Positions 8,933 through 63,600 of a DNA stretch of 64,000 nucleotides are shown here, one piece after another (positions within the stretch are counted from its first letter, which is position 1; every line of letters starts with the position of its first letter). The notes under the pieces were generated by a model. The model saw nothing but the letters and a program-made list of their open reading frames with translations. It was not told the origin of the DNA and searched no databases. The stretch is from Planctomycetota bacterium. Lineage in GTDB: Bacteria; Planctomycetota; UBA1135; GCA-002686595. Location of the stretch: contig NYYZ01000032.1 of assembly GCA_002686945.1 (NCBI GenBank), positions 55,406-119,405 on the forward strand, in the 5' to 3' direction. Both the position numbers and the translations under genes were made by a program.

Positions 8933-11328
8933 GGAACTGGGTTCCGAGCCAGACCCTGTTGAGCCACGAGGGCCAGCAGGTAACAAGCGGCACCGGCAAG
9001 CAGCACATTGGAGAAGCCCAATTCCATGGAACCGATCGCGGCGATGATCGCTCCAAGCACGGTGCCCGCAGCGTTGATCGCCCAGGCCCATGGGACAAGG
9101 TCCGGGCCGCTCTTGTGCAGCAACGCGATACCGTGAGAAAAGGGAATGCCCAAGACCAGGCCGAAGGGCACCACCACAAGGCCACCCATCATCAGCCGCA
9201 AGCCGCTTGGCAAGTGACCAGCGAAACGCACGATCTCGGGGCCCATTTCATTCCAGGCAACAACGAGCAAAAGCAACGCGGCGGGCACCAGCCAGAAGGG
9301 GGCCCGGGCATGACAGAACCAGCGTCTGCTGATCAAACTGCCGACGCCCGTGGCGATCAGGATCGCAGTCAAGGTGATAGCGATGGAAAAAACCGGATGC
9401 CCGACGATCAGCACCAGTTCCTGCATCAGGGTGACCTCAATAAAAATGAAACCCAGCCCGAGGCTGAGAAAATAGCCCAGTACTGCGAGGCGTGGACCTC
9501 CACTTGCTCGTCTCTTGCCGAGCAAAGGCAACCCCAATAGCAGGACCGACATCACAAGAGCGAAGGCCAACTGGATAAGCATGAATAGCGGGTTGCCCTG
9601 AACCTGGGAAGCGGGCGCATCGATCAGTTCTCTGGCAGAAGCCCAGTCGGTGAAACGCGTGAAATGAAAGAAGAAGGGCCTGTCGTCCCCCACGGGATCA
9701 ATACGAGCGGAAGCGCCGGCTTGGAAAGCTGGCTTGTCCTGAGCAAGTACCAGTTCCTCCACCAGGCCCCCGACACGCTGACCTGGGAAGTAGGAAGCGT
9801 CCATACCCGCATCGGCGAGATAGACCAACAAACGATCCAGCTGCCCACGGGTGAAAGGTTCCCGTCGGCAGAGGATCGCAGCAAAATCCGCCGCATGGAC
9901 CACGGCCACGCAGTCCTCAAAGGCCCCGCTGCCGACCTCTTGCCAGGCGTCGTGCACGGTGCCAAGCAGACGCAACACTTCCACATCCCCCGACAGGCGC
10001 GTCAACTGAACACTGCCACCTTGATTCAAGACGGCGAACATGTCGCGCACCGCGTCACTGGTGTAGAGGAAGTTCTCCGCCAACATGTAGGCCCCAGATG
10101 CGAGAGCGGTCCAGGTGTCGATACCGGACATCTGCAGCAGGTCAAAGCGCTCCTCTTCCCGGATCAGGGCCGCGCGACCTTCCGCGTGCACGAGTTCGAC
10201 TCCGGGCTCATTCAAGAGGTCTTCTGAATACCCTGAATAGACGCTCTCGTGCAAATCGACAATCTGACGGTTGAGTTCCACCGCCTTGATGCGCGTGGCC
10301 CCCCCCTCCAGCGCTCCCCACAAGTCGCAACCACCACCGGCACCGATGATGAACACGCTCTTGGCTCCCAACACGGTTGTGCCCAGGGAATAGAGACTGC
10401 GGCTCAGATTCGCACGACCTTCGGGACTGCCGCTGAAGTCATGCATGAAGGTGCCTGAAGAGGAATCCTGGGCGATGAACAGTTGCTCCTCGGGATACCC
10501 GGTCACCTTTCGCCCGGGCATGAACATGCTGCGCTCTTCAGGCTCCACCTGATAGACATCCACCCGCGAGAGGGCGCTCCAGCGGGAGTAGACCTTTTTC
10601 TCTCCCAGCCGAACCTCCTGGCCGCGCGCCAGGCGGACCTCATTGGACGAAGGAATCGGCAGCAGACGCTCGGCGCTGGGGGTCAAAATGATCAATCCCA
10701 AGAACCCCACCCAGGGAACCAATGCCCGACCGCGAATCACCTGAGAAATGGAATGCGGTCCATAGGCGAGCACCAGGGCCCCAAAGAAAATCGCCGCCGC
10801 GACACAACCAGCGCCGCCCGCGCCCACCCACCACAGAAGCAGGGGACAACTCAATGCCCCCACGGCCGCTCCCAGTAGGTCCGCGCAATAGGCCTTGTGA
10901 ATGCGCGACCCATGCCGAACCAACAACAGCCCAATAACCAAGCCGCCGGTGGCAAAGGGCAGGGCTGCACCCAGGTTGTAGAACAGGAACGGCAGGGCCG
11001 CGCCCATGGTCCCGAAGCGCACATCCGGATCGATGGGAAAGCGCACCATCCACAGGTATGCCAATGGCAGGGAGAGAGCCGACAGCCACAGAAACCTCCG
11101 CAGCCACAGATCCTCGCGGCCTTGGATGCGGGTGCGTAGAGCAAACAACAGGGACCCGGCCGCGCCCAGACCCAGCAGGCCGTTGGACACGATCAGGAAT
11201 CCATAGTGAAAGGCCAGGCGCAGGGCACAGATGCGCGTGACCAGCACCTCCCATAGGAGTGTCGCCGCCGCCGCCAGAGCGAGGATCAGGAAGTCACGCC
11301 GGATCGACGAGGAGTTGACTTGGGTCAT
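8929..11328 (-). CDS. Multi-TM fused spermidine-synthase-like (SAM fold) membrane protein
   Basis: 799 aa; many TM segments and central Rossmann segment KSVFIIGAGGGCDLWGALEGGATRIKAVELNRQIVDLHESV. Confidence 0.75.
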   Translation of the reverse strand: MTQVNSSSIRRDFLILALAAAATLLWEVLVTRICALRLAFHYGFLIVSNGLLGLGAAGSLLFALRTRIQGREDLWLRRFLWLSALSLPLAYLWMVRFPIDPDVRFGTMGAALPFLFYNLGAALPFATGGLVIGLLLVRHGSRIHKAYCADLLGAAVGALSCPLLLWWVGAGGAGCVAAAIFFGALVLAYGPHSISQVIRGRALVPWVGFLGLIILTPSAERLLPIPSSNEVRLARGQEVRLGEKKVYSRWSALSRVDVYQVEPEERSMFMPGRKVTGYPEEQLFIAQDSSSGTFMHDFSGSPEGRANLSRSLYSLGTTVLGAKSVFIIGAGGGCDLWGALEGGATRIKAVELNRQIVDLHESVYSGYSEDLLNEPGVELVHAEGRAALIREEERFDLLQMSGIDTWTALASGAYMLAENFLYTSDAVRDMFAVLNQGGSVQLTRLSGDVEVLRLLGTVHDAWQEVGSGAFEDCVAVVHAADFAAILCRREPFTRGQLDRLLVYLADAGMDASYFPGQRVGGLVEELVLAQDKPAFQAGASARIDPVGDDRPFFFHFTRFTDWASARELIDAPASQVQGNPLFMLIQLAFALVMSVLLLGLPLLGKRRASGGPRLAVLGYFLSLGLGFIFIEVTLMQELVLIVGHPVFSIAITLTAILIATGVGSLISRRWFCHARAPFWLVPAALLLLVVAWNEMGPEIVRFAGHLPSGLRLMMGGLVVVPFGLVLGIPFSHGIALLHKSGPDLVPWAWAINAAGTVLGAIIAAIGSMELGFSNVLLAGAACYLLALVAQQGLARNPVP

Positions 11329-16837: not shown

Positions 16838-18529
16838 CTAGTGCTTCGATCGCCTGCCCTTCTTAGTTGGCAGCTTCTTCGCAGCCGCCAACTTGACCGA
16901 AGTCAGAGTCCCGCCGGTCTGCTCTGCCAGATTTTTCCAGTGCGCGGTCACACGCTTCCCCGCATCCACCAGCACCAGATCAAAACTCACCGGCGCAAGG
17001 CGCACCCGCTCCAGGGTCAGCTGCACAAAGAGCCCCAGGTCCCAATGAAATCCTCCAGTGGGCGCCCCATCCGAAAGGATCAGCACACTGTCCAGCTCTC
17101 CCCCAGCCAGAGTCAATTCCAGGGCCTCCCACAAATCTCCCGTACCGGCCAGATGCAGGTCGTCGTAGTACTCTTGAGCGCGCTGCCCCATGCGCCGGTC
17201 AGCGACCTCCGGCTCAGCAGGCCAAGGATGGGGTTGGGCCGCGTAGGGCACCAACTGAAACAGAGTCCCCACGGGCAACACCTTCAAGGTGTTCCGGATG
17301 TACTGATCCAAGGCCTCCTTGCGCGTGCTGCCGGCCTTGAGTTTCTGCTGCACCGACCCGGAGAGGTCAATCAGCAATGCCACACGATCACTGTTCAGGG
17401 GCAGACGCAGACTACCCGCTGCCGCAGTACGCCCCTCTGCCTGGGGCGTTTTGCTGCCCCTTTGTGGTGTCGGCAGGGGCCCAGGTTTCAACTCCCCCAG
17501 CCAGGCCTGCCAAGGACGCGGATCTCCGCGGTAGCGCAAGCCAGAGAGTTCCTGCAGAGCCGCGATCACTTGCTGGCGCAAACGCATGGCTTCCTCAGTC
17601 TTGAGGGCCGCAACCAACAACTCCACCGAACTGCGCCGGGGAAAGCGTCCCAGCAGCGAATAGAGTGCACGCCGCACGAGCACACTGTCGTCCCCTGCTA
17701 AACGCCGGCATCCCTCTTCCAACTGGGAAACGCCAACTCCATTCCTGCCATCTGATTGGCTCTGAGCCACCCACTCCTCCAGAGCCAGGAGCGCCCCCAC
17801 CCTCAGCTCCGGTTTCTTGGACCGAATAGCTGGCAAGGCCAACGACCCCAACTGAGGCGCGTCCACCTGTGCCAGGGCCAACAATGCGCCCCCATTGACC
17901 GCCCCCGATGCCCGCGAGGAGCGGGCCAAGGACGCAAGTCGACTGACCAGCCGATCCGACCCTCCGACAATACAGCCGCGCTGCGCCAGTCGTTCCACCG
18001 AGCGAAGAAGGAGCCTTGTGGTTTCATCATCCCCCGCCCGTAGCCAGGCGGCGAGTTCGTGCGCTTCAAACGGCCCCTGCAACCAACCTGTGGTCTCCGC
18101 CAGACGCCAACGACGCCCCAGGTCCTTCGAGCGCAGCCCATCGCGCCCGGCCCACTTCTTCAACACCCGTTCCGCATCACAATTCCGCAGGGCCAACTGG
18201 GCCGCATCCGCCGCCTCGGCCTGACCATCGTCCAACACCTCCCAAATCAGCTCCCAGGCCTCACGAGTGCCCAGCTTGCTCAACTTGCGCACGGCGCTGG
18301 CCCGGGCCGAAGGGCTGGGATTCGACAGTTGGCTCTTGGCCTCTTTGAAAAAGGCGCGCTGCTCACGCAGGCTGGGTTCCTGGGCACGAAGACCTGGCAG
18401 AAAAAAGAGAGCCAACCCCAGGGCGAGAGCCCCGCCCCACAAACCTCGATCCGCAATCTTCACAACTCGAGAACGCACCCAAGGCCCCCCGGGTTTCACC
18501 CCAAGTCTGTAGGCTTGGGACTCACCCAA
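16838..18529 (-). CDS. HEAT-repeat plus VWA-like domain secreted protein (start uncertain)
   Basis: 563 aa; signal-like WGGALALGLALFFLPGLRAQE, HEAT-like helices, DRVALLIDLSGSVQQKLKAGSTRKEALDQYI...LDSVLILSDGAPTGGFHW (MIDAS-like DxSxS). A GTG inside the ORF (VKIADRG...) is a likely alternative start. Confidence 0.75.
   Translation of the reverse strand: MGESQAYRLGVKPGGPWVRSRVVKIADRGLWGGALALGLALFFLPGLRAQEPSLREQRAFFKEAKSQLSNPSPSARASAVRKLSKLGTREAWELIWEVLDDGQAEAADAAQLALRNCDAERVLKKWAGRDGLRSKDLGRRWRLAETTGWLQGPFEAHELAAWLRAGDDETTRLLLRSVERLAQRGCIVGGSDRLVSRLASLARSSRASGAVNGGALLALAQVDAPQLGSLALPAIRSKKPELRVGALLALEEWVAQSQSDGRNGVGVSQLEEGCRRLAGDDSVLVRRALYSLLGRFPRRSSVELLVAALKTEEAMRLRQQVIAALQELSGLRYRGDPRPWQAWLGELKPGPLPTPQRGSKTPQAEGRTAAAGSLRLPLNSDRVALLIDLSGSVQQKLKAGSTRKEALDQYIRNTLKVLPVGTLFQLVPYAAQPHPWPAEPEVADRRMGQRAQEYYDDLHLAGTGDLWEALELTLAGGELDSVLILSDGAPTGGFHWDLGLFVQLTLERVRLAPVSFDLVLVDAGKRVTAHWKNLAEQTGGTLTSVKLAAAKKLPTKKGRRSKH
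18371..18500. repeat. Direct repeat copy A, 5' region of the HEAT/VWA gene
   Basis: Core acaaacctcgatccgcaatcttcacaactcgagaacgcacccaa at 18439-18482; gapless match to 19500-19629 at offset 1129. Confidence 0.9.
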
Positions 18530-18540
18530 CGACCATTCCC

Positions 18541-19482
18541 ATGGACCTGCGCATCACCCCCTTCCTCGCCCTCGCGCTCTTGAGCGCCGCGCCCCTCGCG
18601 ACCACAGCGAAGCAGGTCCCACTCAAGGTCTTCATCCTCGCCGGGCAGTCCAACATGGTCGGGGCCGGTGAAGTCAAGGCCAACCCCGACCGCAACGGCG
18701 GCCAGGGGACCCTCGAGCACCTGGTGAAGTCGAACTCGAAGAGCAAGAAATACAACCACCTCGTCGACGGAAACGGCGACTGGGTCGTGCGCGACGATGT
18801 GTGGATCTCCTACTTCGAGCGCGGAGGGCTGCTGTCGGTGGGCTACGGCGGGGACGAGGGCAAGATAGGACCCGAGTTGGGCTTCGGACATGTGGTCGGC
18901 GAGTTCTTCGACGAGCCCGTGCTGCTGATCAAAGTCGCCTGGGGAGGAAAAAGCGTCGGCAAGGAATTCCGGCCGCCGAGCGCGGGGGGAGAGGTCGGCG
19001 AGGCCTACACGGCCCTGTTCGCCCAGGTCCGCGAGGTCCTTGATGACCTCGACGGGCGCTTCCCCGACCTCAAACACGATGGCTACGAGATGCTGGGCAT
19101 CGGCTGGCACCAGGGCTGGAACGACCGGGTCAACCAGGCCTTCAACGACGCCTATGAGCACAACCTCTCCTGCTTCATCCGCGACGCGCGCAAGGAGCTT
19201 GACACCCCCGACCTACCCTTCGTGATTGCCGAAACCGGCATGAGCGGACACGAGGAGCGCCACCCCCGGGCCCTCTCGCTCATGAAGGCCCAGGCCGCCG
19301 TCGCACAGCGCGAGGAGTTCCGCGGCAACGTGGCCTTTGTCGGAACCAAGGACTTCTATCGTCCCAAGGAGGTCTCGCCCTCGGGCCAGGCCTACCACTG
19401 GAACAACAACGCCGAGACCTACTACCTGATCGGCGAAGGCATGGGACAGGCGATGCTCAAGTTGTTGGAATCGGAACAGTGA
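18541..19482 (+). CDS. SASA-domain (sialate O-acetylesterase-like) carbohydrate esterase
   Basis: 313 aa; LKVFILAGQSNMVGAGEV, VLLIKVAWGGKSVG, GIGWHQGWNDRVN; signal peptide. Confidence 0.88.
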   Translation: MDLRITPFLALALLSAAPLATTAKQVPLKVFILAGQSNMVGAGEVKANPDRNGGQGTLEHLVKSNSKSKKYNHLVDGNGDWVVRDDVWISYFERGGLLSVGYGGDEGKIGPELGFGHVVGEFFDEPVLLIKVAWGGKSVGKEFRPPSAGGEVGEAYTALFAQVREVLDDLDGRFPDLKHDGYEMLGIGWHQGWNDRVNQAFNDAYEHNLSCFIRDARKELDTPDLPFVIAETGMSGHEERHPRALSLMKAQAAVAQREEFRGNVAFVGTKDFYRPKEVSPSGQAYHWNNNAETYYLIGEGMGQAMLKLLESEQ

Positions 19483-19499
19483 CACGCCGGCCTCCTGGT

Positions 19500-19629
19500 A
19501 TTGGACTCCTGGGCCCAAAGCCCTGGCGGACACCAAAAAGCCAACCCCAGGACCAGAACACCGCCTGACAAACCTCGATCCGCAATCTTCACAACCCGAG
19601 AACGCACCCAAACACCCTCGGGTACCACC
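19500..19629. repeat. Direct repeat copy B, residual copy of the HEAT/VWA gene 5' end
   Basis: Core acaaacctcgatccgcaatcttcacaacccgagaacgcacccaa at 19568-19611 (43/44 identical to copy A); minus-strand reading VWVRSRVVKIADRGLSGGVLVLGLAFWCPPGLWAQE versus PWVRSRVVKIADRGLWGGALALGLALFFLPGLRAQE. Confidence 0.9.
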
Positions 19630-19659
19630 CTGCGTTCCCTGGAAAGCTAGACTGCCCCA

Positions 19660-20148
19660 ATGAGCAAGAAGGAAATCACCCTGACCCTGGCGTCGTTCAT
19701 GGATTCGGAGCACTCGAAGAAACTCGAGACCTCCCCCGAAGACCAACGCCGCATCGCCGCTGCCTTCTTGGCGGTCTGCTATGAGGAGATCGGCAAGGCG
19801 CCTCACCTGCTCGATGGACAGGACATGCACGCGGCCCTGGGGCACTGTCTCCCCGGTCGGCTCAAGCGCAAGGACCCCCTGGCAGAGGAGGTACCCCCGA
19901 TCTTGCATGCTCTGGTCGATCACCTGACCGAAGAACATGTACTGGCCCACGCCTTCGAAATCCGCGCGGCCATCGAGTCCACCCGGGGCGAATTCATCGA
20001 AACCGTGCGCACAGGCAACAACCCTCACCACCACGGGGGCCCAAAACAAGAAACCGTGGTGCACAAGGCCGCGAAACTGGGCCGCAACGATCCCTGCTTT
20101 TGCGGCAGCGGCAAGAAGTTCAAGAAATGCTGCGGCAAGAATTCGTAA
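19660..20148 (+). CDS. SEC-C motif protein
   Basis: C-terminal [24 protein letters not shown]. Confidence 0.85.
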
Positions 20149-20181: not shown

Positions 20182-20835
20182 ATGACCAATCAAGTCTGTT
20201 CCAACTGCGGTGCTGCGATCCCGGACTCAAGACACACCACTTGTGAGTTCTGCGGTCACGAGCTACCACGACAAGAGAACGCTCCGTCTGAAATCCACAG
20301 CCTGTCCGACCGCATTCAACGGGACCTGCCCCTGGTGCGCGAGGCACCAGAATTCGCAGCCCTGCAACGACGCGTGCCCCCCGCCCCGCCGTCCTTTGCC
20401 GCCTTCAAAGTGATCTCAGGCATTGGTACGGTGATCGCCTGTGTAATTGGCTTGGGGATGCTGGCCTTCGCGATCACCGTCACCTCCTTCCTCCCCGAAT
20501 CCATGAAACTGTTTGCAATCGTCCCTTTGCTCGGATTGGCCATGGTCGGACTTTTCATCCGCATGTCCATCAAGGCCAGAAGCAAGGTGAGCGACTACCA
20601 GACAGGACCCCTCGAACGGCGGGTCGTGGGAGTCCTCGATGAACGCACCGAAGTCCGTGGCGGGGGCGATTCAATGACCAGCACCTCCTATTTCATCACC
20701 TTCCTCGACGAGGAGGGTCGACGGGAAGAATTGCCAGTTGTAGGCAAGACTGCGGGAGAAGTCACCAATGGCGATGTGGGCGTTGTTTTTGTACGCGGTG
20801 GCTTCGCCCTGGACTTTCAGCGAGTGAATGTCTGA
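20182..20835 (+). CDS. Zinc-ribbon membrane protein with DUF2500-like C-terminal region
   Basis: MTNQVCSNCGAAIPDSRHTTCEFCGHELP, two TM segments, YFITFLDEEGRREELPVVGKTAGEVTNGDVGVVFVRGGFALDFQRV. Confidence 0.7.
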   Translation: MTNQVCSNCGAAIPDSRHTTCEFCGHELPRQENAPSEIHSLSDRIQRDLPLVREAPEFAALQRRVPPAPPSFAAFKVISGIGTVIACVIGLGMLAFAITVTSFLPESMKLFAIVPLLGLAMVGLFIRMSIKARSKVSDYQTGPLERRVVGVLDERTEVRGGGDSMTSTSYFITFLDEEGRREELPVVGKTAGEVTNGDVGVVFVRGGFALDFQRVNV

Positions 20836-40577: not shown

Positions 40578-43073
40578 TCACTCGATCTCGGCGCGCTTGA
40601 GCCGGGAACTGACGGTCGCCTTGTCCCAGCCCATCAGGCGCGCGACCCCGGCCACGTTGACCCGCCCCTGGGTTGTGCTGGTCTCGGCGCAGGCGGCCTT
40701 GAGGGCAGGGTAGCTGCGCGCATCAAGGGGCAACTTGCGATCCCGGGGTATGCCCATGGGCCGCAGCAGGTCCATGATCTGCTCCAGGTCCAGGTCAATT
40801 CCATTGGCCTGGATCACCAGGGTCGACATGGCCTCGCTCAGCTCTCGCAGACCTCCTTTCCAGGGCAGACGCCAAAGCCAGGCAAAGGCCTCTTCACTGA
40901 CGCGAGGCGGATCACAGGACTCCTCGCGGGCATGCAATTGCAGCAAGCCGGGGATCCATGCGAAGAGTTCATCCCGACGTCGATCCAGGCCCTCCACATC
41001 TACACGGCAGCGCAACACCAGATCCAGCAGATCCGAGTTCCACTTCCAGTTGTTCGGCTCGCTGCTGGTGGACAGGATCAGATTGCGGCCCTGGTCCGAA
41101 CAGATCAAGTCCAACAACAGCGCCTGCCCTTCCCTGGACAGGAACTCCGGCTGGGTCAGGAATATGGGGCCATCTCCGACCTCGGACCTTCGGAAATTAC
41201 GTCCATCGAAACGGCGAGCGACACCCAGGCCCCGCAGATAAAAACCCCAGCGCGAGAGAGTGGCCTTCCCGCATCCCGTTGGACCCACCAGAAGAATCGG
41301 CCCCTTGCTGGCGGAAGCCCGGGACAAGCGGTCCAAGAGGCCAACGAATCCAGGCACACGAGAAGGCAGGTACAAGGAGCGGTGAAACCGTTCCCGATGA
41401 AAGCGGCAAAAACGCATGACTTCCAGTTCACGGGCCGCACCGGACGCGCACTCCGCAAGTACCTCAAGCAAGTCCGCGTCAATGCTCTTTGCGCGAACCG
41501 CTTCCAGACAGAAGAACCCGATCAGCAAGTTCCCACGCTTGAGGGGCAGTGCAACACCACCTACTGAATCCACGTGAACCGAGAGCTGAGGATCGGCACC
41601 CTCAAAAGTGCTGACACCACCCAGGCGCTGAGCGCGGTCCAGAATCCCAGCGCCTCCTTTCCACTTGCCCTTGAGGGGCAGAGGCTTGCCTGAGGTGGCA
41701 ACCAACCGGGGCTCACCGTCCTCAATCACATAGCCAAACCAGCGGCGACGGCCAAGGCCCCGTTTTGTGGCTTGCATCAGATTGTGGAAGGGAGCGTGAA
41801 GTTCAAGATCATCGAGCCGGGTTTCGGCCGTGTTGTCCTCATTGGGCGCGACCTCTCCATTGTCGACAATGGACTTCTCCACCTGGGGCAAGGACATGTG
41901 TTCTGCCCAGGGAGCGGCGATGCGTTCCAGCCGACTGGCGCACACGTTGGGAGCCTGGGGCCACTCCACATGCAGCCACCCGCAGACACCCACTTCCTCG
42001 GCCACAATCGGCACCACACCAACTGAGCGGGTATCCGGATGGAGGGCCGCAGTAGGTTTGGAGACGCTGCGGTGATCGAAAACCATGCTACAGCTCTCCA
42101 TGGCTTCCCGAGCGGGGTCCGCTCCACTGCGCCAGCCTCTGCGCCTGGCGGCGCCCCAGACAGACAGCTTGGTCTGGACTCCGGGTTCCACGGCAGCGAA
42201 TTCCAACTGGGAATGACCATCGCGCAGGGAGTGCACACTGAGCACGAGAGCACCCAGGTCCTCGGCGCTGCGGACCAACCCCTTCTCAGGGCGCACGAAG
42301 GAACCCGGTGTGCGCGGAATCCCCGCCAGGGCAAGAGAAAACTCAGGCTTACGCTCGCGCAGGGCCACCAGGAAAGCGGGCACGGGCCAAGGCTGGGAGT
42401 GCATGGGCTCAGCGCCGTCGTGATCAGTCCCAAGCAATGCATGAGCCCAGGCAGTGAGGCGTGCACTACCCGGCAAGCCCCCCGCAAACCGCAAGTCCTG
42501 CAAACACTTGTTGGGTTGGCCGCGCTCCAGTTCAACTGCCGCCCTTTCAATGCGCGCCTGGGCGGCAAACGGCCTCTTGTGTTTGAGCAGGGTGCCCCAG
42601 CTCGCCATTGCGCGCTCGTGCAGACCAAGCACATGCTCCAGGCGCGCCCTCCAGATAGCAGCACGATCTGCGTGCATGCCCATTTCGCAAAGGCCCTTCA
42701 AAATACGCGTACCGATCTGCTCGTAGCTCTCCCCAAGATCAGGTTGGTTGATAGTGACCTTGGGATCCACAGCCCATTGAGCCCAGCCCTCGTGCCAACT
42801 CACATTCGGTTGACCTACAAAAATCACCGCATCCTCGTGCTGCAGACCGCCCACCAGATGACGCATCAGATCCTCACCCACCTGCAAACGACGGCCTGCG
42901 AGATGATCTTCCAGAATCTTCCCCATGTCGCGCCGGGGAGGCTGGGCATCCAAGGGCCGCACGGTCAGTGAGCGCACGGCCCGCACCGCGCTCAAGATGT
43001 CCCGCGCCCGGGCAAATGCGCTCTCATCGGGCTCGCCAAAGGAAGCCAAGAGGTTTTCCCGATGGTGGCTCAT
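40578..43073 (-). CDS. GAF/degenerate AAA/Fis-type HTH regulator-like protein
   Basis: 831 aa; GAF-like regions, GPILLVGPTGCGKATLSRW, GDGPIFLTQPEFLSREGQALLLDLI, C-terminal NVAGVARLMGWDKATVSSRLKRAEI HTH. Confidence 0.7.
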   Translation of the reverse strand: MSHHRENLLASFGEPDESAFARARDILSAVRAVRSLTVRPLDAQPPRRDMGKILEDHLAGRRLQVGEDLMRHLVGGLQHEDAVIFVGQPNVSWHEGWAQWAVDPKVTINQPDLGESYEQIGTRILKGLCEMGMHADRAAIWRARLEHVLGLHERAMASWGTLLKHKRPFAAQARIERAAVELERGQPNKCLQDLRFAGGLPGSARLTAWAHALLGTDHDGAEPMHSQPWPVPAFLVALRERKPEFSLALAGIPRTPGSFVRPEKGLVRSAEDLGALVLSVHSLRDGHSQLEFAAVEPGVQTKLSVWGAARRRGWRSGADPAREAMESCSMVFDHRSVSKPTAALHPDTRSVGVVPIVAEEVGVCGWLHVEWPQAPNVCASRLERIAAPWAEHMSLPQVEKSIVDNGEVAPNEDNTAETRLDDLELHAPFHNLMQATKRGLGRRRWFGYVIEDGEPRLVATSGKPLPLKGKWKGGAGILDRAQRLGGVSTFEGADPQLSVHVDSVGGVALPLKRGNLLIGFFCLEAVRAKSIDADLLEVLAECASGAARELEVMRFCRFHRERFHRSLYLPSRVPGFVGLLDRLSRASASKGPILLVGPTGCGKATLSRWGFYLRGLGVARRFDGRNFRRSEVGDGPIFLTQPEFLSREGQALLLDLICSDQGRNLILSTSSEPNNWKWNSDLLDLVLRCRVDVEGLDRRRDELFAWIPGLLQLHAREESCDPPRVSEEAFAWLWRLPWKGGLRELSEAMSTLVIQANGIDLDLEQIMDLLRPMGIPRDRKLPLDARSYPALKAACAETSTTQGRVNVAGVARLMGWDKATVSSRLKRAEIE

Positions 43074-43693
43074 TCAGAGCTGCCCTCAGCCGAAAGGTCG
43101 GGATCATCGAGGGAACCGATGGCCCGGGCCACATCGCGCAGGATGACTTGAGTTTCAAAACGGTTGAGAGGAAACTCCTCAACCACCTGCTCGAAAGCCA
43201 CCCCATCCAGAAATGCTCGGTGCACCACTTCACGCTCCAATTGCTCCAGGCGATTGATGATCTCCACCGCCTGCCAACAGACCTCGGGTTTCATGCCCAC
43301 GTCCTTCCAGGCCACCGACCACGCGCCCAGGGGCTTGCAGTTCTTCTTGAGGATGCCACGCACAACCCGGTCCACCAGCTCAAGCAGGAACTCCTCCGAG
43401 TCGGAATACTCATCCAAGCCAACCGACTCGGCAATCGCCACGCAGACCTCGTCGTGCACGACCTCCGAATCAAGCAACAGGGTGTGCTCGTCGATGTAGG
43501 CCCGCACGAGTCGGTGCAGACGCAAAGGATCGCCGCTCAGCAGCCTCTTGAGGACCTGGCGCGGTGTACCGCGCAGGGAAACCCAGCGAGGCACGTTGAG
43601 GGGCTTGGCGGTGTCGGGAGTGGTCGAGTCCACCAACGGCTCAGAAGACCCGTTCTCGGGATCAGGCTGATTGCCGGCGAGCGAAGAGGACAT
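43070..43693 (-). CDS. Sigma-factor-like small protein (region-4-like C-terminus)
   Basis: Start MSSSLAGNQ at 43693; INRLEQLEREVVHRAFLDGVAFEQVVEEFPLNRFETQVILRDVARAI resembles sigma region 4; 4-nt ATGA overlap with the downstream gene. Confidence 0.45.
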   Translation of the reverse strand: MSSSLAGNQPDPENGSSEPLVDSTTPDTAKPLNVPRWVSLRGTPRQVLKRLLSGDPLRLHRLVRAYIDEHTLLLDSEVVHDEVCVAIAESVGLDEYSDSEEFLLELVDRVVRGILKKNCKPLGAWSVAWKDVGMKPEVCWQAVEIINRLEQLEREVVHRAFLDGVAFEQVVEEFPLNRFETQVILRDVARAIGSLDDPDLSAEGSSE

Positions 43694-43961
43694 TCTTGGG
43701 GGGCTCCGATAAGAAGCGGCCCTTGGGACCTTCGGAAGCCCCCTGAGCCTAGAAGTTCCCATTGTGAACAGGGTCTTGGAGCGCTCCCACAGACCAGAGA
43801 CATTGCAGCTTCTTTGATTCAGCCTCACGAGGCTGGTCTCGGTGAGGGGGTTCCTCCTAGCGAACTAGGGGTTGTCCCAGTCTCATGAATCGCAGGGCCA
43901 GCACCCCGAGGCTCGACCTTGCCTGCCTGAATGCGTACCGTCTGCCTTCGGAGTACTCCCT

Positions 43962-44732
43962 GTGACAAGATTTCTAGAAGGTAAGACCAGTTTGGTTCTG
44001 GGTGTCGCCAACAAGCGCTCCCTCGCTTGGGGCTGCGCCCGTTCCCTCGCCAATGCGGGCATGCGGGTCGCCCTGACCTATGCCAGCGAGCGCTTGGAAA
44101 AGAACGTGCGCGACCTGGCGGAAGAGCTTCCCGGATCGATCTGCGTGCCCTGCGACGTGACTCAGCCTGAGGAGATCGACTCGGCTTTCGAGACCATCGG
44201 CGCTGAGTTCGGCGGCCTCGACTCCCTGGTGCACGCCATTGCCTTCGCCAAGCGGGAAGAGTTGCAGGGAAACTTCTTTGAGACCACAAAAGAAGGCTAC
44301 ATGTTGGCCCACGAGGTCTCGGCCTATTCCCTCACCGCAGTAGCACGCAGAGCACTGCCTCTGATGAAAGATCGAGAAGGGTCCATCGTGACACTCTCCT
44401 ACCTGGGATCGGAGCGCGTCATCCCCAACTACAACATCATGGGCATCGCCAAGGCAGCCCTCGAAGCCAGCGTTCGCTATCTTGCTGCAGACTTGGGTCC
44501 GCGCGGAATTCGCGTCAACGCGATCAGCGCAGGCCCCATCAAGACTCTCTCAGCTGCGGGTGTGGGCAACTTCTCTGAACTGCTTGCAAGCATCGAGGGC
44601 AAAGCGCCCCTCCGACGCAATGTGACATCGGAAGAAGTGGGCGACACCTGCCAGTTCCTGTGCGGACCCCAATCCCGGGGCATCACTGGCTCGGTGATCT
44701 TCGTGGATGCGGGCTTCCACATCATGGGTTAG
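43962..44732 (+). CDS. fabI: Enoyl-[acyl-carrier-protein] reductase (NADH)
   Basis: FLEGKTSLVLGVANKRSLAWGCARSLANAGMRVALTY...LSYLGSERVIPNYNIMGIAKAALEASVRYLAADLGPRGIRVNAISAGPIKTL; GTG start assumed at 43962. Confidence 0.95.
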   Translation: MTRFLEGKTSLVLGVANKRSLAWGCARSLANAGMRVALTYASERLEKNVRDLAEELPGSICVPCDVTQPEEIDSAFETIGAEFGGLDSLVHAIAFAKREELQGNFFETTKEGYMLAHEVSAYSLTAVARRALPLMKDREGSIVTLSYLGSERVIPNYNIMGIAKAALEASVRYLAADLGPRGIRVNAISAGPIKTLSAAGVGNFSELLASIEGKAPLRRNVTSEEVGDTCQFLCGPQSRGITGSVIFVDAGFHIMG

Positions 44733-44777
44733 GAGAGCCTGACAACAAGACAGGCCCCGCCCCACAGGACGAGCCCT

Positions 44778-45938
44778 ATGACTGAACCTCAGCCGAGCAG
44801 CAAGCAGGAGCCCCCCAAGTCTCCCCTCCTGGGGCGCATCGCACGCATCCTCGCTGCCTCCCTGCTGCTGCTGCTGATCGTGGTGGAATTGGGCACACGC
44901 ATTGTCTCGCTGCCCGGACTGAGCCAGAGCGACCTCAATCCCAGTCAGGAGCAGGCCGACGGACATCTGCGCACCATCGGCCACCCCTATCTGGCCTACG
45001 TGGGGCGCCCCGATTGGAGCCGCGAGGCAGATGAAAAAGACGGCCAGAAATCCCACGGGGCAAGAGGATTCCGGAACCCGGAACCGCCCCTCCAGAAAGC
45101 CCCGGGGGCCTTCCGCATCGCCTGCCTGGGAGGCTCCAGCACCTATGGCAGCAGTCCCAGCAGTGACGCCGCCACCTGGCCGGCGCAGTTGGAAACGATT
45201 CTCAATGCCAGCCATCAGCGCCCGATCGAGGTGCTCAACGCGGGCCTCATGGGCTGGAGCACCTTTGAGAGCCTGATCAACTACTCCCTCAGGGTGAGCG
45301 ACTATCAACCGGATCTGGTACTGGTCTATCACGGGATCAACGACATGCGCTGCGCCCTGTATCTGCGCGGCGGGGACCCCCAGGCTGACAATACCCATTG
45401 GCGACTGGGATGGCCCCGGCTTGTGCGCACGCCCGGGGAGTCGTTGCTTGAGGTCAGCCAGACCTATCTGATCTGGCGCAGATACATGTCAGACTATGGG
45501 GTCGGTCAGAAATCCCTGGGCTTCTATGGCATCAAGAACTACCGCGCAGATGACAAAGATCCCTTCTGGCGCGAAGAGCCCCCGAGCATTGGGTTCGAGA
45601 ACTTCCAACGCAACCTGATCAGCCTGCAGGCGGTAGTCAAGGCTCACGGAGCCCAGATCATGTTCGGCACCCAAGGCTGCAAGCGCAGCGACATCCACGC
45701 CAAGTCCAAGCATCAGCAATGGGCCGGACTCGATGAAATCGAGACCATCACCCGTCATGTGGCGGCCAAGCGTGGAGTTCACCTGTGCGAGTCCCGCCTG
45801 GCCCTTGAAGGCCAGGCCCAGGAGCGCGGAGTGGAGGTGATTTTCACCCGCGAGGTACACCTCACGGACGAAGGGGCGCGAGTCCTGGCCGCCGCCTTCG
45901 CCGACCGCATTGGACAACTGGGGTTGATACCCGAGTAG
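44778..45938 (+). CDS. Membrane-anchored SGNH/GDSL hydrolase
   Basis: RIACLGGSSTYGSSPSSDAATWPAQLE...LVLVYHGINDMR...VHLTDEGARVLA. Confidence 0.85.
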   Translation: MTEPQPSSKQEPPKSPLLGRIARILAASLLLLLIVVELGTRIVSLPGLSQSDLNPSQEQADGHLRTIGHPYLAYVGRPDWSREADEKDGQKSHGARGFRNPEPPLQKAPGAFRIACLGGSSTYGSSPSSDAATWPAQLETILNASHQRPIEVLNAGLMGWSTFESLINYSLRVSDYQPDLVLVYHGINDMRCALYLRGGDPQADNTHWRLGWPRLVRTPGESLLEVSQTYLIWRRYMSDYGVGQKSLGFYGIKNYRADDKDPFWREEPPSIGFENFQRNLISLQAVVKAHGAQIMFGTQGCKRSDIHAKSKHQQWAGLDEIETITRHVAAKRGVHLCESRLALEGQAQERGVEVIFTREVHLTDEGARVLAAAFADRIGQLGLIPE

Positions 45939-60651: not shown

Positions 60652-63600
60652 TTAGCGCAGAGACTTGATCTCCTCGCGCAATTCGCGCAGGCTGGCGGCA
60701 ACCTCGCTTTCTTGCGCTTCGAGCCTCGCCTCAAGAGCCTGCATGCGCTCCTGCACTGCTCCCAGAGCGAGGGCGGCGGCCCGGGCCTGGTCGATGCCCA
60801 CGGCGGCGTTCACCAGCCCAATGCCGGGTCCAGTGAATGCCTCCCAGGCCGTGCCGATCACCTGTCCCACTTCATGGGCGTGCAAGAGAACCGGAGCCAC
60901 GGCGCGCGCGGTCCCATCACCGTTGGGCAGGAGCAGATCGCCAATGGCCACTTCCCCGCGCACCTTGACAGGCACCTGACCCATGAAGGCCACGCGCTCA
61001 TGACCCTCGCGGGTGTCCTGGTCCGCATCGAGGCAGTTGCCCACCACCACCGGGTTGGTGCTGATCACCATGATCTGCTGGGCGCCGGCAACAGACTTGG
61101 CTATCTGGCCTGCGAAGACGCCGACCACATCGCCAGGCTCGAAGACCTCGCTGGGATCCCGGCGCTCAAGCCACTCAGCATAGTCGGCCCCGCCGCCGTT
61201 GAAGGCGACGTCACAGTAGACGCTGCCAGAGTTGTCCACCCGAAATTCCAGGTCGGTACCGTTGGCCGCCTCGATGATGTTGACTCCAGCGGCGTTGTTG
61301 CTTTGGTTTGCCCTAATTGCAGCGCTTGTGCTCGCCGCGTTATTGTTATTGACCAGAATTCCATACCCTAACCCAGAATTAAACAACCGAATTCCAGGTG
61401 AGGTGCCGGAGGTGTTATTGTTGTGAGCAGCAATCGCTGCCCCTGTCCCATCATTAACTATATAAATGGCATGATATCCGGTGGTAGTAACACTCTGATT
61501 AATTTGGAGTGGATTCGCCGCATCGTTGCCGTCGACTAAGACCCCGCCGGTGAACTCACCCGCCAGACTCGTGCCACGTGCAACAATCCCAATTCCATCC
61601 GTCCCCAGTTCCGCATAGTTATTGAGCGGATCCCCTGAATACTCTCCTCGCACCCCAACGCCGTTGGAATGACCACGGACACCGTAGTTGTCTCCAGTCG
61701 AGGTGCCCGTGGAAATACCGGCGACACCGATCTCGTTTCCGGCCCAATCAGCAGTGAGGTCTCCTTCAAAGTCAGTGGTCCCTTGCACTCCCAGATAGCC
61801 CGCCGTATCATATGTGTTCAGCCCGCCGACCTTGTAAGGCCCAGAGCCATTGGACGTGACAGTGCCCGAACCGAAATCAGGAGTAATTTTAGTCCCTTCG
61901 ATAGCGGCGGAAGCGCTTATGTCAAGATTCGTAAGAGTGCCGTCGGCAATGTCCACACCAGTCACGGACCCGTCGAAGATTTCTGCGGAGCCCACCGCGT
62001 TCGTGGCGATCTCCGATAGGCCCACTGCACCATCAGCGATCTCAGCGGAGCCCACCGCGTTCGTGGCGATCTCTGATGCGCCAATAGCCCCGGTGGCAAT
62101 GTCCGCACCAGTCAAGGACCCGTCGGCAATGTCCACACCAGTCAAGGACCCGTTGAGGACTTGCGAGCTGCCCACTGCACCCGGAATAATTTCTGAAGAG
62201 CCAACGGCATTCGTAGCAATTTCTGCGGAGCCAACGGCATCCGTAGCAATTTCTGCGGAGCCCACCGCGTTCGTGGCGATCGCCGATGCGCCAACGGCAT
62301 TTGGAGCGATATTAACGGAGCCCACCGCGTTCGGGCCGAGCTCCGATGCACCAACGGAATCCGCGGCGATGTCGACTGCTAGAATGGAGTCATCAGCAAT
62401 CTCCGCGCTCCCCACCGCACCAACAGCGATTTCTGCGGAGCCAACGGCACCCGTAGCTATTTCTGCGGAGCCCACGGCACCCGCGGCGATCGCGGCTGAG
62501 TCCACAGCGCCAGCGGCCAGAGCAGCGGAATCCACCGCTCCAAGTCCGATATGTCCCGCACCCACTGCGCCCGCGGCGATCGCGGCTGAGTCCACGGCGC
62601 CAGCGGCCAGAGCAGAGGAATCCACCGCTCCAAGCCCAAGATGGCCCGCGCCCACTGCACCCGCGGCCAACTCATCCGAGCCCACGGCGTCCGTGGCGAT
62701 TTCGCTCGACCCGACGGAATCGTCGGCCAATTGCGCAGCAAAAATCGACGAACCAGCGAGATCCGAACCGGTCAGGGAACCATCGGCGATATCGGACCCA
62801 GTGATCGAGCCATCGATGATCTCGTCATGGCCCACGGAGTCGAGAGCAAGCTTGGGCTGAGTCACGGAGCCGTCCTCCAATTCCGCCGTACCGATCGTGG
62901 CTCCCAACTGGGAAAAGTCCGAGGCATGCAGGCCGTCGAGCAGGTCCGCGTTGAGGTTCGTATTCAAGTCCGCAGAGCTCACATTGAAGGGAGCGCCCAC
63001 ACTGGTCACGGTCAACTGGCCGTCCACCTGGGTGTCGCCAGCCACATGCAGCTTGGCCGTGGGCAAGGTCGTACCAATGCCCACATCTCCAGCTGCCGAC
63101 ACGAACCAATCTCCGCTGATGGGATAGAGCATGCCCAGAGTGGGAACCGTGGATGCGGGAATGCAGTTGGACGGAGCCGCCTGGTCACGGATTCCGCTCA
63201 AGCAGATGAACTGGGACTGGAGTGGGGGCGGATTGAGCGCACCGACGCCCCCGCCTCCGGAGACGCTTCCGACCGTACTGGCATCAGCCAAGTTTCCCGT
63301 GTTGCCGAATCCAGCCACGGGATTGGCGCGCAGCAGGGCCGCCAGCGCCGCAGGGCCGAGCGGACTGCCTACACAGGTAAAGTCCCGCCGCACCTGGAAC
63401 AGATGGGCTCCATCGGGGCCCGCCAGGAGCAACTCAAAGCGGCCGTCCCCATCCGTGTCGAGCCATTCAGCGCTCACGGTGGGTTGAATCTGACCCAACC
63501 CCGCGTGCTCGGTCACATCACGGAAGACAAAGCCGCCCATGTTGCGCAGCAGACGGTCCACGCCCACCAAATACAGATCCGGCGAGCCGTCCCCATCAAT

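Follow-up and report, generated by a model that had tools for sequence, protein, structure and literature searches.

Very probable acquisition of a SASA-family esterase gene by transposase-free insertion with a long target duplication in Planctomycetota

The window analysed here is a 64,000-nucleotide stretch of contig NYYZ01000032.1 (assembly GCA_002686945.1), which belongs to a Planctomycetota genome referred to as G000 (2.82 Mb, 78.6% complete). Relatives are denoted G001 to G006; the closest genomes are all incomplete metagenome assemblies. The locus of interest contains an esterase gene between two neighbouring genes, with one copy of a direct repeat on either side of it, and its features are as follows.

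16838-18529, minus strand: HEAT-repeat/VWA-like gene, the left neighbour (Pfam HEAT_2 above the cut-off, VWA_3 just below it)
18373-18501: copy A of the duplicated target, consisting of the HEAT/VWA 5' end and intergenic DNA (81% to copy B; G001 and G004 have the ortholog of this copy, G005 and G002 a single copy)
18498-18505: junction of a secondary deletion of about 150 bp common to G000 and G004 (from alignment with G001 and the donor loci)
18499-18540, plus strand: donor-derived DNA from upstream of the esterase (83% over 42 bp to DNA upstream of the G005 esterase)
18541-19482, plus strand: SASA-family carbohydrate esterase, the inserted foreign gene (Pfam SASA, PF03629, E 1.7e-23; GC3 0.88; dN/dS 0.13-0.19)
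19468-19501: right junction zone (donor homology to about 19468, in the last esterase codons; clear target homology from 19502)
19502-19630: copy B of the duplicated target, a dead HEAT/VWA 5' stub that is now SEC-C upstream DNA (81% to copy A; from sister comparison)
19568-19611: 44-bp core of copy B (unchanged in G000, G001 and G004 though now outside any gene)
19660-20148, plus strand: SEC-C motif gene, the right neighbour (Pfam SEC-C; its first codons lie inside the duplication kept in G001)

The HEAT/VWA and SEC-C genes diverge, pointing away from each other. Matches to the HEAT/VWA gene were found in 59 of the 61 genomes searched, and the gene is intact, as an earlier reading of the window (hereafter the sequence-only reading) had proposed. 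The TTG start at 18529 that came with that reading is doubtful, however, because homology to the sisters runs from about residue 14 on and the first 13 codons lie across the deletion junction; translation probably begins at a conserved start near 18480-18490. Elsewhere in the window, at 61954-62703, a 30-bp unit is repeated in an array in which many of the copies are degenerate; if coding, it would give 10-residue repeats, and it probably lies within the gene of a repeat-rich protein. The DUF2500-like gene at 20182-20835 has a fourfold-site divergence to G005 of 0.21, well under the 0.39-0.63 of other neighbours.

The gene between the two neighbours scored 83.9 bits against Pfam PF03629 (SASA), above the curated cut-off of 24.8. 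It had been described as richer in GC and in C-ending codons than its surroundings, and the GC3 check agreed: 0.88 for the esterase compared to 0.70 ± 0.04 elsewhere (45 other ORFs of the window; mean 0.699, SD 0.040, maximum 0.775). Among G000, G001 and G004 the dN/dS of 0.13-0.19 shows that the esterase is a maintained, functional gene under purifying selection. It is the only gene in the insert, and neither a transposase nor a short terminal inverted repeat was found at the locus, in keeping with the first description.

A repeat scan of the window aligned 18373-18501 with 19502-19630 without gaps at a spacing of 1129, with 81% identity over 129 bp (E 1e-29). The constant offset and the ungapped alignment were thus as originally claimed, with the limits slightly adjusted. 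The 44-bp core (18439-18482 and 19568-19611) differs at one position, copy A lies in the intact HEAT/VWA gene and copy B is a stub beside the 3' end of the esterase, all of which the sequence-only reading had right; absent from it was the observation that the repeat also spans the upstream side of the SEC-C gene (19660). The repeat is longer in G001, where it measures 180 bp at 89% and extends beyond the SEC-C start codon. Judged by G001, the true boundaries of the duplication are wider than the repeat visible in the window.

The idea that the repeat recurs genome-wide as a hotspot was refuted. BLASTN with copy A against the whole of G000 returned only copy A itself (E 9e-79) and copy B (E 1.1e-29). 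When the core was searched for in seven genomes, allowing up to three mismatches, G000, G001 and G004 each had exactly two occurrences, and G002, G003, G005 and G006, which belong to the same genus, had none. With two occurrences per genome, the repeat is not mobile by itself.

The two copies share a common ancestry, and their tree (B clade 96/97; G000A with G004A 81/87; G001A near the base) indicates when they arose. Since A copies cluster with A and B copies with B across species, a single duplication before the split of G000, G001 and G004 is most likely. The core of copy B was invariant in the three genomes at 44 of 44 positions, versus 73 of 91 outside the core (Fisher p 0.0007). A possible reason is that the core serves the SEC-C gene as a promoter or regulatory site; alternatively, gene conversion with copy A would account for its invariance.

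A site with a single copy of the repeat was found in two relatives when synteny was compared, as the sequence-only reading had proposed. In G005 (locus L046) and G002 (L048) the HEAT/VWA and SEC-C genes lie next to each other with a gap of about 40 bp, a single copy of the repeat and no esterase, and the gene order of the neighbourhood is the same. G001 and G004 have the arrangement of the window, so that three independent assemblies (G000, G001 and G004) agree. The esterase is also missing from the HEAT/VWA to SEC-C gap of G006. A different small gene occupies that gap in G006 (L051 10743-11602), which suggests that the gap may take insertions repeatedly.

The esterase of G005 and G002 sits elsewhere, between a hydrolase gene and a sulfatase gene, and close homologs of these two flanking genes were not found in G000, G001 or G004. 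Among 80 related-esterase loci from named genomes, the gene was beside HEAT/VWA and SEC-C only in the two records of G001 and G004. The close named relatives are Planctomycetota metagenome assemblies. G005 and G002 carry relatives of the immediate donor.

Synonymous distances show that the gene moved horizontally. Between G000 and G005 the NG86 dS of the esterase was 0.25, far below the 0.83-2.6 of eight neighbour genes, and fourfold-site divergence was 0.15 compared to 0.39-0.63 for nearly all neighbours (the DUF2500-like gene being the exception). Within G000, G001 and G004, on the other hand, fourfold-site divergence of the esterase (0.07-0.15) was similar to that of the neighbours. Consistent with this, the five esterases formed one 100/100 clade with short internal branches, while the concatenated neighbours split the two groups by long branches. 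The GC3 of the esterase likewise departs from its surroundings in G005 and G002 (0.87 and 0.83, versus 0.60-0.77 for other genes around it), which makes the gene look foreign in both groups.

The junctions were read from alignments in which divergence has blurred the exact bases, leaving the right junction uncertain by about 35 bp and the left by about 40 bp. Past its 180-bp repeat, G001 continues into DNA matching the stretch upstream of the G002 esterase, a longer match than the one in the window. A deletion shared by G000 and G004 took the duplicated SEC-C start together with part of the donor upstream DNA, a stretch that G001 retains; that these two genomes share it fits the species tree, in which they are sisters. 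At the other end, the last esterase residues and the stop codon differ between G000, G001 and G004 and the donor-type version of G005 and G002. In a shuffle test, resemblance of the right junction zone to the target gave a p of 0.03 for G001, against about 0.2 for G000 and G004. A target-derived C-terminus for the esterase was rejected because the roughly 30 bp before copy B resembled the target only in G001, at that p value, and not in G000 or G004.

It is very likely, in our view, that the common ancestor of G000, G001 and G004 gained the esterase horizontally, as a single gene inserted by transposase-free recombination with a target duplication of about 180 bp; G000 and G004 later underwent a deletion. 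A cargo gene that landed with a large target duplication was the first of two alternatives in the sequence-only reading, and it is supported by the single-copy sites of G005 and G002, the low synonymous distance and the lack of a transposase. The incoming fragment would have been almost the whole esterase gene with about 120 bp of the DNA upstream of it. It would have entered the gap of about 40 bp between the divergent HEAT/VWA and SEC-C genes, with about 180 bp of target, reaching into both coding sequences, being duplicated to either side. About 150 bp was later lost at the left junction in G000 and G004. Because the target was duplicated on both sides, the HEAT/VWA gene keeps an intact 5' end (copy A) and the SEC-C gene keeps its upstream region (copy B).

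The recombination itself would have been illegitimate or homology-facilitated illegitimate. Its enzymology may have been one-sided homologous pairing or template switching of the incoming DNA, as is clearer in another insertion of the same genus (contig C30 of G001, described below). No homologous anchor could be identified for the esterase insertion, and its route may have been either homology-facilitated illegitimate recombination with a donor since lost, or template switching during repair. End joining by Ku was rejected as a candidate: PF02735 had no match in five genomes, themselves incomplete, and a control genome was positive. DprA, present in all five, would permit uptake of linear DNA, for example by natural transformation. 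A survivor effect probably explains why such insertions turn up at gene starts: an insertion is harmless only where the duplicated stretch contains the boundary that was broken.

Other routes to the same arrangement were weighed. A Campbell-type integration would start from a circular DNA with the esterase and a target-homologous piece of about 180 bp; one recombination inside that piece would leave the insert between direct repeats. The expected product is the same as that observed, and the model has been proposed for Arabidopsis transposed genes with flanking genic repeats (PMC2869330). We regard it as unlikely here because it requires a donor in which the target was already joined to the esterase, and none was found outside G000, G001 and G004. 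A decayed conventional transposon or integron would also account for a duplicated target, as transposition duplicates targets, but the duplications made by IS1 and IS5 are 4-10 bp (PMC3031569), the insert of about 1 kb holds the esterase only, and the five insertions that we describe have unrelated ends and unrelated duplications of 78-211 bp. These points make such an element very improbable as the carrier.

If the esterase were ancestral at the site, its absence from G005, G002 and others would reflect loss by recombination between the repeats, a process that does restore a single copy. Parallel losses would then be required in G002/G005 and in G006, and the low dS between differently placed esterases, the donor flank and the GC3 would be left unexplained. 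The synonymous distances contradict ancestral presence, to which we give very little credence. Finally, the second alternative of the sequence-only reading was a tandem HEAT/VWA paralog whose body gave way to the esterase. The nature of copy B, a HEAT/VWA 5' stub, is what such a replacement would leave. However, no relative examined has such a paralog at the locus, the insert carries its own upstream DNA from a sulfatase locus, and the duplication in G001 includes the SEC-C start, which is not expected of a paralog; replacement is thus unsupported, and we find it scarcely credible.

Insertion with target duplication is not confined to the esterase. Direct repeats of at least 60 bp, spaced 0.3-8 kb, were sought in stretches of G000 and G001, the window and the sister loci, about 1.77 Mb in all, partly overlapping or orthologous. 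The sampled stretches contained at least four further, unrelated insertions of this kind, with a different duplicated sequence each time; this count comes from sampled parts of two genomes, G000 and G001, with partly overlapping content. Other repeats that came up in the scan were ordinary and were rejected. By labels read from the sequence, these were tandem Dabb-type genes (L045), ParA/MinD-like motifs (L167 and L277), microcompartment-shell-like genes (L205), and internal repeats and tandem paralogs (L214, L265 and L272).

One further insertion (contig C32 of G000, 42953-44838; L155 4953-6838) has a sulfatase gene with dnaE on one side and, on the other, a stub copy of the dnaE 5' end (78 bp, 74%). 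It is present in G000, G001 and G004, while G005 and G002 have dnaE without the sulfatase or the stub, though the flank on the other side differs in them. In both G003 and G006, the best match to this sulfatase is on the contig of the esterase ortholog. In another (contig C14 of G000, 9340-10812; L165), a DUF697 gene lies between the copies of a 93-bp repeat. Of 31 genomes, only G000 and G004 had the gene; in G001 the site is empty, with one repeat copy. The DUF697 insert starts with about 97 bp resembling another conserved locus.

The remaining two are on contig C30 of G001. In the first (L208 651-4565), a sortilin/BNR-type gene opens with about 84 codons that are copied (211 bp, in frame) from the 5' end of the sulfatase gene next to it. 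The site is empty in G000 and G004, which have one copy, and in G002 a sortilin/BNR gene with its own, different N-terminus lies beside the same sulfatase. The gene in G001 has exchanged its own leader for the signal peptide and first residues of the recipient sulfatase. The copy fused to the sortilin/BNR gene resembles the G000/G004 sequence, mostly at 83-88%, whereas the copy on the sulfatase is G002-like for its first ~250 bp and then has 90-99% identity with G000. This switch between donor and recipient alleles inside the sulfatase indicates that one end was joined by homologous exchange and the other was illegitimate, a pattern that points to homology-facilitated illegitimate recombination as the probable route. 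Deletion between repeats at a later time could in principle have produced the single-copy states at the DUF697 and sortilin/BNR sites, although the duplication itself would still need an insertion.

The second insertion on this contig (L208 4916-6019) is a GNAT-type acetyltransferase ORF between divergent Rieske-type and phosphatase-like genes, all three labels having been read from the sequence and not from a family scan. About 160 bp of the 5' region shared by the two flanking genes is duplicated, the site has one copy in G005 and G002, and the anatomy is the same as that of the esterase insertion. We tentatively suggest that transposase-free insertion with an 80-210-bp duplication of a neighbour's 5' region might be a main, recurrent route of single-gene gain in the genus, one that would keep divergent promoters intact and would sometimes supply a ready promoter and signal peptide.

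The empty site, the donor-type locus and the junctions are rarely caught together for single foreign genes without mobile elements, and all three are available here, in uncultured Planctomycetota. The duplication explains how a gap of 40 bp between divergent genes could take in a gene with both neighbours left unbroken, and the sortilin/BNR insertion shows how an incoming gene can gain a secretion leader. With several independent insertions in one genus, the process becomes countable.

Homology-facilitated illegitimate recombination has been described in transformable bacteria, where linear foreign DNA is joined through homology on one side and illegitimately on the other (PMC3240628), and T6SS orphan gene arrays of Vibrio cholerae have been ascribed to it (PMC5361080). 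The sortilin/BNR insertion is similar in having a homologous switch inside the sulfatase on one side and an illegitimate joint on the other; the esterase insertion differs in having no identifiable homologous anchor, so that for the esterase the mechanism would be the same only by extension. Long flanking repeats from the target gene also accompany single genes at new sites in Arabidopsis, for which the circle model was put forward (PMC2869330), but those genes moved within the genome of a eukaryote while the present transfer was between bacterial species.

The esterase insertion has the features of insertion with long target duplication, a pattern already known from restriction-modification genes of Helicobacter pylori (Nobusato, Uchiyama, Ohashi and Kobayashi 2000, Gene 259:99-108, as presented in PMC1643837 and PMC3031569). 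As those two accounts describe the pattern, both systems have a foreign gene, long direct repeats of variable length, a single copy at the empty site of a relative, and no transposase. The repeats at the esterase are target-homologous and far longer than transposon target duplications (129 bp in G000, 180 bp in G001), and relatives have the single-copy site (L046 of G005 and L048 of G002). Restriction-modification cargo, typical of the published cases but not defining, is replaced by a SASA esterase, so that metabolic genes of Planctomycetota stand in contrast to the H. pylori genes, and the duplication here covers the 5' region shared by two divergent genes. The published bacterial cases in these accounts concern restriction-modification genes, in which the cargo might drive the event; the metabolic cargo seen here argues that it need not. 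The insertion pattern itself being known, what this case adds is the unusually complete evidence, the metabolic cargo, the duplication of divergent gene starts and the signs of recurrence in the genus, and it is the recurrence, together with the capture of a leader, that makes these insertions of interest.
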